Positions 33,986-36,806 of a stretch of DNA of 37,634 nt are shown here, piece after piece. Each line of letters opens with the position of its first letter. The stretch's first letter is position 1. The stretch is from NCBI GenBank assembly GCA_030620515.1, contig JAUXEM010000011.1, positions 1-37,634 of the forward strand, given 5' to 3'. Below the pieces are notes generated by a model. It was given only the letters and a program-made list of their open reading frames with translations. It ran no database searches and was not told the origin of the DNA. Origin of the DNA: Salinivirgaceae bacterium. GTDB taxonomy: Bacteria > Bacteroidota > Bacteroidia > Bacteroidales > SZUA-534. Made by a program: the position numbers and the translations under genes.

Positions 33986-34110
33986 GCCCTTCTGTTTTTG
34001 AAAAAGGGATACCTAAAAGTAAGAGCAATTATAGCTGTATTGTTATGCTGTTGTAATTGCATGTAAATAAATATTATTAAGTTCAATGATTAGAGAATCA
34101 AAAAAGTTCC

Positions 34111-34118
34111 TAAATTTG
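34111..34118 (+). promoter_or_regulatory. Putative -7 element (TAAATTTG) of the 34-kb exported protein
   Basis: Exact TAnnTTTG match 31 nt before the ATG at 34149. It lies inside the longer ORF-track version of the gene, arguing for the shorter start. The -33 region has no TTG. Confidence 0.45.
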
Positions 34119-34148
34119 GGTAGATTCAATAATTTAAATTATGATAAC

Positions 34149-35516
34149 ATGAAAACTGCTTTAGTTATACTCTTATTACTTGTAAGTAATATTGTAATTT
34201 TTGCTCAAACTAATTTCGAGCTTTATTCTATTGAGGATACTTATCCAATATGTGTATCAAGTAATAATAAGGTTTTTTATGGTTTAACCTGGAGTGAAAA
34301 TAAAGCTATTGTAAAGGCTTATGACTTGGTTACAGGTAAGGTAGTTAAGAAATTTATAAGTGTACTGCCTGAAAATCCTATTAAACTAATGTTGGCTCAT
34401 CCTAGTAAAAATTTGCTTTATTTAATAAGCACACGAAAAATTGATGATACGGAAAATAGGTACATTGATGCAGTGTATAGTTTGAATATTAAGAGTGATA
34501 AACTTAAACTTCTACGTAAAGTGTATTATAATTATAAGATACCCAATAAAATTGGATTTGTAGAAAATAATTTGGTTTTTACCACCCTTCAAGAGCCTAC
34601 TTATTTGTTTAATTTAAAAAAGAATGATTTTTCGCTTTTAAATCCAAATACCGATTACCAACTTTTAAGTATTGCACCAAAACAAAAAGGATTTTTAATG
34701 CTAAATATTAAGGAAATAAGCCAAAGAAAGGTGCCTATTTATTTTATGGATATGGGAAGAAAAATTTCGGACAGAATAGCTTATGTGAACCCTTATGCTA
34801 TAATTAAATCGGAGGTTCGGAGTATTCAATTACAAACTATTACATTGGAAGATAGTTCATACAGTTGGATTTTAAATGCAGTTAGATTCAACTGTTTTCC
34901 TCTTTATAATTTTCAAATTGCAATGCGTCCGTTTTGGCTAAAGCATTCCACTACACTAGATAAAGCATATGCTTTATCAGGAGTTTTATTTGCTAATGAT
35001 ACCTACATGATTACTCGTGTTGGTAAAAGTATTTCTGTTTATAATTACACAGAGCCAGGCAATTCAGCACCATCAAATATAACAGATGCAGATATAGCTA
35101 AAATAGAAGAGTATCTTAACCAAAGAAACACCTTAGATAGGGAAATTATTACATCGGAATTTTTGGAAAGTGTTTTTGATGGTTTATTCTATCAGGTTTA
35201 TTCAAAGAATAAATTAAAGCATATTGCCGTTCAACAGCATGGTAGTTATTTTGAATTGAAAGATTATAGCATGTTGATTTCATTGATAAAAGCTGATTTT
35301 AAACTTACGGACGATAAACAAGCTAAGCTATTTCAAGATGCGCTTAATGTCATTTTTCCGGTAGATGCTTATAATAAAAAGAATGTTGAAAACTATAAAG
35401 TAGAAAACGAATGGGTTTTTGTTAGAGGGGAGGCTTTTGGGAATAAAGTTGGAATAATTGCTAAGTTAAATGATTCTGGCGAAATATTGGAAATAGTATA
35501 CAAGTCGGCATTATAA
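34149..35516 (+). CDS. Exported protein of unknown function between pnp and rpsO
   Basis: I start at ATG 34149, which gives a clear signal peptide (MKTALVILLLLVSNIVIFAQ); the ORF-track start 63 nt upstream adds a polar stretch and lies before a promoter element. The mature roughly 435 residues are not recognised. Residues about 25-180 have repeated strand-like segments with a rhythm similar to beta-propeller proteins (KAYDLVTGKVVKKF, LYLISTRKIDD, VYSLNIKSDKLKLL), but no repeat is clean enough to call. The C-terminal roughly 100 residues end in EAFGNKVGIIAKLNDSGEILEIVYKSAL, strand-rich. There is no lipobox and no T9SS signal. The gene is transcribed against its neighbours pnp and rpsO and shares a bidirectional terminator with rpsO. 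Periplasmic location is inferred. Confidence 0.75.
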   Translation: MKTALVILLLLVSNIVIFAQTNFELYSIEDTYPICVSSNNKVFYGLTWSENKAIVKAYDLVTGKVVKKFISVLPENPIKLMLAHPSKNLLYLISTRKIDDTENRYIDAVYSLNIKSDKLKLLRKVYYNYKIPNKIGFVENNLVFTTLQEPTYLFNLKKNDFSLLNPNTDYQLLSIAPKQKGFLMLNIKEISQRKVPIYFMDMGRKISDRIAYVNPYAIIKSEVRSIQLQTITLEDSSYSWILNAVRFNCFPLYNFQIAMRPFWLKHSTTLDKAYALSGVLFANDTYMITRVGKSISVYNYTEPGNSAPSNITDADIAKIEEYLNQRNTLDREIITSEFLESVFDGLFYQVYSKNKLKHIAVQQHGSYFELKDYSMLISLIKADFKLTDDKQAKLFQDALNVIFPVDAYNKKNVENYKVENEWVFVRGEAFGNKVGIIAKLNDSGEILEIVYKSAL

Positions 35517-35959: not shown

Positions 35960-35979
35960 GCGGTTTTGGTGTTTTTATT

Positions 35980-36236
35980 AACCGCTGAGGTCGCAGAGGT
36001 GCGCTGAGGTTTTTTTATTTTGTTCTCTGCGTTTCTCCTTTTCTCTGCGGTTTATTTTATTTTTTATTTTTCTCTGTGTTGCTCTGCTTCTCTGCGGTTT
36101 AATTTTTTTATAACCGCTGAGGACGCTGGGGTACGCTGAGGGTTTTTTTTTTGTTTTTTTCTCTGCGTTACTCCTTTTCTCTGCGTTTTAGTTTATTTTT
36201 TATTTTTCTCTGCGTTGCTCTGCTTCTCTGCGGTTC
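35980..36236. repeat. Two direct copies of an A-B-B' repeat module
   Basis: Unit A (about 30 nt, AACCGCTGAGG then CGC-rich) occurs at 35980-36009 and 36112-36141. Each A is followed by unit B (CTCTGCGTT-CTCCTTTTCTC type; 36024-36053, 36160-36190) and B' (CTCTGTGTTGCTCTGCTTCT type; 36071-36100, 36207-36236). A is a diverged inverted version of B, so each module could fold back. Spacers are T-rich. The two modules are direct repeats of about 125 bp. They lie at the 3' side of the GxxExxY gene. Confidence 0.85.
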
Positions 36237-36246
36237 AAGTTTTTCT

Positions 36247-36630
36247 TTATTCACTATAATTATTTACTACTCTTTTTATCCCATGTTTTAAACGGGCTAC
36301 GTTAAAATTAATAAGTAATCCCACTTCATTATTGCTTAGTTTTAAGTAGGTTAATATTTGAGCCATATGTACATCATTTAAAGCTTCAATAGCTTTTAAT
36401 TCAACAACCACCTTATCTTCAACTAACAAATCAATACGGAATCCACATTCTAGTTTTACCTCGTGATAAATTACAGGTAGAGCCTTTTCCTTTTCCACTT
36501 TAATGCCTTGTTCCTTTAATTCGAAATACAAACATTCCTGATAAACAGACTCTAATAACCCAGGACCAAGCTCTGTATGTACCTTTATTGAGCAATCAAT
36601 AATTATTCCGGTAATGTCGTTTATTTTCAT
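36247..36630 (-). CDS. GxxExxY protein (PD-(D/E)XK-like)
   Basis: The 127-residue protein has the family motif G24-x-x-E27-x-x-Y30 in LGPGLLESVY. Beyond the name-giving motif it shows residues in the order expected for a PD-(D/E)XK nuclease fold: Asp67 in RIDLLV, Glu77-x-Lys79 in VVVELKA, and Gln91-x3-Tyr95 in MAQILTYLK, similar to the Gln/Tyr motif of Cas4/AddB-type nucleases. Databases often list such proteins without function. No signal peptide is present. It is enclosed by repeat modules on both sides, the nearest starting 16 bp upstream of its ATG and 11 bp past its stop, so any promoter must lie in or across repeat DNA. Nuclease activity is an inference. Confidence 0.88.
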   Translation of the reverse strand: MKINDITGIIIDCSIKVHTELGPGLLESVYQECLYFELKEQGIKVEKEKALPVIYHEVKLECGFRIDLLVEDKVVVELKAIEALNDVHMAQILTYLKLSNNEVGLLINFNVARLKHGIKRVVNNYSE

Positions 36631-36645
36631 AGTTTATGCTTTTTT

Positions 36646-36806
36646 AACCGCTGAGGACGCTGGGTTACGCTGAGACTTTTATTTTTATAACCGCTGAGAT
36701 ATCAGAGGTGCGCTGAGGTTTTTTTATTTTGTTCTCTGCGTTACTCCTTTTCTCTGCGGTTGAATTTTTTCTATTTTTCTCCGTGTTACTTTGTTTCTCT
36801 GCGGTT
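36646..36806. repeat. Solo A unit plus a third A-B-B' module
   Basis: A units lie at 36646-36675 (followed by no B) and 36689-36718. B at 36733-36761 and B' at 36778-36806 complete the second one. Units and order match the modules on the other side of the GxxExxY gene, with more substitutions in B'. The whole array therefore reads ABB', ABB', gene, A, ABB'. Confidence 0.85.

Follow-up and report, generated by a model that had tools for sequence, protein, structure and literature searches.

GxxExxY nuclease-like genes boxed by inverted, periodic-word repeats: a candidate minimal chromosomal element

Across many phyla, genes of the GxxExxY family (PF13366) are often found enclosed by short repeats that share a grammar rather than a sequence. 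We propose, with a probability of about 0.58, that gene and flanking repeats together constitute a minimal chromosome-borne element of ~0.5-0.8 kb, similar in kind to the REP/RAYT systems, in which a PD-(D/E)XK protein acts on its own arms. The unit itself and its turnover are well supported by the comparisons below; that the protein binds or cuts its own arms, that cutting drives copying and which form of DNA serves as substrate are steps that we infer. To our knowledge, GxxExxY is a widespread family with no established function. The open-access literature offers only passing mentions of it, in two papers, and, for the repeat words and PF13366, nothing relevant; we found no published description of the arrangement there, although subscription papers and preprints could hold one.

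A GxxExxY gene inside a modular repeat array

In the window (the whole 37.6-kb stretch of DNA analyzed), an array at 35980-36806 comprises four A and six B/B' units, arranged in two clusters around one GxxExxY gene (36247-36630, minus strand). All units were located on the plus strand by a mismatch-tolerant scan, the B and B' units also by a genome pattern search. Module 1 consists of A at 35980-36009, B at 36025-36052 and B' at 36072-36099, and module 2 of A at 36112-36141, B at 36161-36188 and B' at 36208-36235, the last being the unit closest to the gene on its 3' side. A solo A unit (36646-36675) lies 15 bp upstream of the gene start, and module 3 (A, 36689-36718; B, 36734-36761; B', 36779-36806) also occupies the 5' side. 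The initial annotation had described three A-B-B' modules and a solo A around a single ORF, and this description is exact. The same scan detected no further A or B/B' units in the rest of the window. Genome-wide counts, here and below, come from pattern and profile searches: a B-type 28-mer with up to three mismatches matches seven times in the 3.93-Mb genome, six times in the array and once alone on another contig, and its reversed control pattern has zero matches there.

A and B had been read as inverted versions of one unit. This reading holds with a refinement: each 28-30-nt unit is itself composed of three degenerate ~9-nt words of the CRC-x-GAG type, so the similarity between A and B stems in part from internal periodicity. 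The inverted pairs of the window (A with B) sit inside the modules, and the modules are copied on both sides of the gene. When folded as single-stranded DNA, as had been suggested, the modules reach z -1.5 to -5.4, ahead of most or all of their dinucleotide shuffles; folded as RNA, the whole unit gives z -3.9.

Upstream of rpsO, two relatives (G003 and G001) resemble the window at the nucleotide level, a similarity that stops at 35966-35968. The array begins ~12 bp past this point (left junction, 35966-35980) and is absent upstream of rpsO in both relatives. In the window, rpsO and pnp are separated by a 476-aa ORF (34086-35516, plus strand) that matches neither Pfam nor NCBIfam; several relatives (L094, L095, L097, L103) have the two genes side by side. 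None of the scanned neighbors, which included rpsO and pnp, is a cas gene, and we rejected a CRISPR-Cas reading of the array, whose 4+6 units are degenerate, inverted and irregularly spaced.

The 127-aa product matches PF13366 (E=5e-45, 153 bits; cut-off 22) and the TIGR04256 GxxExxY profile (E=1e-46, 158 bits; cut-off 35), and together with the predicted structure these matches mark it as PD-(D/E)XK (PDDEXK_3) nuclease-like. The candidate nuclease residues listed in the initial annotation (D67, E77-x-K79 and Q91-x3-Y95) are all present: Y30, D67, E77, K79 and N108 are invariant in 65 relatives, and Q91 and Y95 are at least 90% conserved. Absence of a nuclease core from a predicted structure had been named as grounds for abandoning the idea. 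In a confident AlphaFold2 model (pLDDT 94.8), the conserved D...ExK core is located in a predicted alpha-beta fold, as in the PD-(D/E)XK superfamily, and the best PDB folds are those of lambda exonuclease and Cas4 (Foldseek E ~1.5e-3, TM up to 0.58). A Cas4 profile in a defense library also matches weakly (E 8e-4), and neither a single-sequence nor a profile search identified sequence relatives in the PDB. By residues and predicted fold, the protein resembles a small Cas4/RecB-type PD-(D/E)XK nuclease. In two close pairs of GxxExxY genes dN/dS is 0.03 and 0.11, indicating that the protein is kept by purifying selection. Some copies are decayed, with stops or truncations, and the distribution is patchy, at 0-16 copies per genome.

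Flanking repeats and their grammar across phyla

The association of gene and repeat extends well beyond the window. We examined 73 GxxExxY genes from public genomes, a sample that leans toward the window protein's part of the family because it was collected by similarity to that protein, and treated neighboring ORFs alike. Taking an inverted match with a score of at least 13 between the 200 bp on either side as the criterion, 53% of the 73 genes have inverted repeats across them, as against 3.5% of 629 neighboring ORFs (MWU p=5e-17). At 45 of 68 loci, the arms beat every same-geometry control window in their own locus, and among relatives of the source genome 82% of 22 loci carry inverted arms, compared with 1.2% of control windows. 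These fractions rest on modest samples; with the cassette replacement and empty sites described below, they support the earlier proposal that repeats and protein act as one unit. Arms were found in Bacteroidota, Verrucomicrobia, Acidobacteria (Terriglobales) and Alphaproteobacteria, and also in Spirochaetia, Bacillota, Zixibacteria, FCPU426 and other groups. Another subset has no inverted arms across the gene and, like the window, carries whole modules directly copied on both sides.

Individual loci display further variation. Orthologous loci of Neomarinimicrobiota and a marine MAG (L019, L021, L024) have hairpin modules of ~90 nt as direct copies flanking the GxxExxY gene. In Alkalitalea and Natronoflexus (L060, L061), many more copies of the flanking repeat lie within a few kilobases, suggesting local array expansion.

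The source genome encodes five PF13366 genes, each flanked by a different repeat: AACCGCTGAGG... in the window, ACACTGATTTATTATGATT... at L002, ACGCAAAGATTCGCAAAG... at L003, CACTAATTTTACGAATTATC... at L004 and CCACCAAGACACAAAG... at L005. Arms are clearly inverted across the gene at L002, L003 and L005; L004 carries its main repeat as a direct copy on one flank, and the other flank has a weaker version. Since each of the five loci has its own repeat, the conserved feature is the kind of arrangement and not the letters. The initial annotation had proposed testing how often A/B-type repeats lie near GxxExxY genes; taken literally, such a test would fail on the A/B letters, as every locus has its own word, and it is the grammar that is conserved.

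That grammar is one of degenerate periodic words. At least two CRCNRAK words occur in 81% of 106 arms, compared with 0.5% after shuffling, and arm self-similarity is highest at lags of 8-10, corresponding to a word period of 8-10 nt. Arms had been selected solely because they match each other, with neither periodicity nor words taken into account. Arm similarity also increases with protein similarity (Mantel rho 0.27, 0/2000 permutations), a signal that is modest and from which shared ancestry was not removed.

A second family, met unsought at GxxExxY sites, is organized in a comparable manner. S23/IVP genes (PF05635), which encode a four-helix bundle, are known from 23S rRNA intervening sequences (Leptospira, Coxiella). 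Inverted repeats box 72% of 36 such genes, versus 1.4% of controls. Their arms show a strict heptad periodicity (0.52 at both lags 7 and 14, compared with 0.30 when shuffled), and the CRCNRAK word pair is found in 0 of 50. These genes (L230-L243 and L280-L308), of which the source genome contains 14, lie in heptad-periodic inverted repeats of their own. Published surveys of CRISPR-RT and CRISPR-adaptation modules place GxxExxY or 23S rRNA IVP genes beside those modules (PMC8934634, PMC10910872); such genes may be boxes inserted between genes as opposed to functional partners.

Turnover at fixed sites and gene-less arms

A comparison of close relatives for empty sites, proposed in the initial annotation, revealed both empty sites and box replacement at two intergenic sites in one genus (g5, 11 genomes). 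At locus A, flanks are 87-97% identical among these genomes, and the site is empty in G019, where a stop, 8 bp and a start adjoin. Three GxxExxY types occupy it elsewhere, each with its own arms (G004/G008/G010, G016/G018 and G014/G017) and with proteins 34-49% identical to one another, and in G012, G013 and G015 it holds an S23/IVP gene with other arms. Locus B lies between leuC and leuD (gene names from translations). It is empty in G013, retains a short arm remnant and no gene in G014 and G016, contains a GxxExxY box in G008, G010 and G012, and contains an S23/IVP box in G004 (contig C18). S23/IVP boxes thus occupy the same sites as GxxExxY boxes of related species. At locus A, the box of G004 differs from that of G008 by 0 substitutions in 592 bp, compared with 104 in 2740 bp of flanks; here the box is therefore of more recent origin than the DNA around it. 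Site replacement could in part reflect allele exchange via flanking homology; such exchange does not explain how different boxes came to a single site in the first place. Mobility is what these species comparisons suggest. GxxExxY had no match in phages and appears in 8 of 72,556 plasmid records, and we dropped a phage or plasmid origin on these grounds. Given this near-absence from plasmids and lack of phage matches, movement, if any, would take place mostly within chromosomes or by homologous exchange.

The sharing of sites with S23/IVP genes bears on the main rival explanation, an element that acts at the RNA level in the manner of the 23S rRNA intervening sequence. Here, the arms would pair in the transcript, and RNase III or the encoded protein would excise the insert; excision from operon mRNA would render insertion between co-transcribed genes tolerable, and movement would be rare, possibly via RNA. 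The common sites and architecture of the two kinds of box are in keeping with this, as are boxes inside operons (leuC-leuD, for example) and the folding of the unit as RNA (z -3.9). In Coxiella, moreover, the S23 intervening sequence has terminal inverted repeats with GACAGAT heptads and is excised by RNase III, and S23/IVP itself has no established role (PMC4990558). Nevertheless, we regard an RNA-level element as unlikely. A co-transcription bias, considered as support for an RNA mechanism, was not found, with co-direction with neighbors at 77% and 70% against 69% in the control. Many arms form a complete inverted pair on either side of the gene instead of a single stem around it, an Rfam scan of the window locus and others (about 20 loci) detected no RNA family above the gathering score and no location in rRNA, and the protein resembles DNA nucleases.

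Arms also occur without the gene. Each g5 genome has 3-32 gene-less arms like those of locus B, against zero matches for the reversed control pattern. One solo arm occurs in G004, G012 and G019 and is missing between flanks that still align in G013, G015 and G017; G010 and G016 have a longer nested hairpin in its place. In each of these hairpins (L315 on G010:C13 and L322 on G016:C118), one inverted pair lies nested within a second that has different words, as would result from insertion of one element into another. G013 and G015 have no PF13366 match yet retain a few gene-less copies, indicating that these need no resident gene to persist. Gene number correlates with solo-copy number across the 11 g5 genomes (rho 0.63, p 0.04), which is no more than suggestive, the genomes being few and related. 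One solo site and two cassette sites, all with diverged junctions, showed no target-site duplication.

The strongest objection to our preferred explanation also comes from gene-less repeats. In 297 Bacteroidota genomes we found six strict CGCAGAG arrays, none of them within 1.5 kb of a GxxExxY gene. Occurrence of the repeats away from the gene had been put forward as a reason to discard the link between them, and it is in part what these arrays display; the notion that repeats are found only near the gene is rejected. Gene-less arrays away from the gene fit non-autonomous copies and also fit independence.

Two further explanations must be weighed against these observations. The protein might be a sequence-specific DNA binder, or a restriction-like or regulatory protein, for which the words form an operator array, gene-less arrays serve as distant binding sites and turnover reflects allele exchange. 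A word period near one DNA turn, the tracking of protein similarity by arm similarity, purifying selection and the weak Cas4 match in the defense library are all compatible with such a role. We nonetheless judge it improbable, more so than the RNA-level element: it predicts neither inverted symmetry across the gene, nor S23/IVP replacement at the same site, nor presence and absence of solo arms, and the catalytic residues D67, E77 and K79 are invariant. Least probable of all is that the repeats arise independently of the gene, as terminators or as intergenic repeats spread by other machinery, and that small selfish genes accumulate or survive in such non-essential places; the abundance of gene-less arrays, the six strict arrays remote from the gene and the copies in genomes without it speak for independence, and the five different arm types of five genes in one genome, together with an arm grammar that sorts by family (CRCNRAK arms, 81% for GxxExxY and 0/50 for S23/IVP), speak against it. 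This sorting by protein family is left unexplained by both the operator array and independent repeats.

Proposed mechanism and comparison with known systems

In the REP/RAYT-like element that we favor, the GxxExxY protein would recognize arms of two to four degenerate 8-10-nt words at a spacing of about one DNA turn; such arms either face each other across the gene in opposite orientations or form complete inverted pairs. It would cut or trim DNA at these arms, probably once they are extruded as hairpins. Host repair would then copy the arms, yielding gene-less MITE/REP-like copies in intergenic spaces, and would sometimes copy the whole box into such a space. Each gene type would evolve with its own word, which would account for several independent types in a genome that replace each other at one site.

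We tentatively extend this proposal to a new class of elements, in which inverted arms of periodic words box a small protein and the period is set by the family (8-10 nt for GxxExxY, 7 nt for S23/IVP). The array would be read by repeat register and not as a fixed site, so that words could drift fast while gene and arms stay matched, and element types would be mutually blind and compete for intergenic sites. The tie between gene and repeat gives GxxExxY and S23/IVP proteins a testable role, the binding and cutting of their own arms, and the grammar of the arms would account for an abundant class of repeats between genes. Repeat-boxed genes would then be a larger class to which the 23S rRNA intervening sequences plausibly belong as one branch.

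With Cas4, lambda exonuclease and RecB-type PD-(D/E)XK nucleases, the protein of the proposed element shares the predicted fold and the D, ExK and QxxxY pattern; it differs from them in being a 127-aa minimal core, encoded at a locus with no cas genes or CRISPR array. The gene-less copies resemble MITEs in being short, in their inverted parts and in their presence/absence polymorphism, but no classical transposase partner is involved, the ends are periodic words instead of a fixed terminal sequence, and target-site duplications were not seen at the diverged junctions. The 23S rRNA intervening sequence likewise consists of a small ORF within terminal inverted repeats of short-period words; the window ORF, however, belongs to PF13366 and not PF05635, and the period is 8-10 nt as opposed to 7 nt.

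The closest parallel is with RAYTs (TnpA-REP), small chromosome-borne genes flanked by short repeats associated with the local gene, with dispersed gene-less copies, often as intergenic inverted pairs, and more than one type per genome (PMC3116915). GxxExxY genes likewise have flanking repeats that also occur as scattered gene-less copies, frequently in inverted pairs, and their boxes are chromosome-borne, with several types per genome. The differences lie in the enzyme and the repeat. A profile search of the window protein returned only the PDDEXK_3/GxxExxY match and no HUH domain; the element is therefore not a RAYT, which employs an HUH/Y1 enzyme in place of a PD-(D/E)XK protein. Tandem degenerate 8-10-nt words, spread here over many phyla, take the place of the palindromic REP 16-mer. 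The GxxExxY boxes would thereby add a PD-(D/E)XK-based parallel to REP/RAYT.
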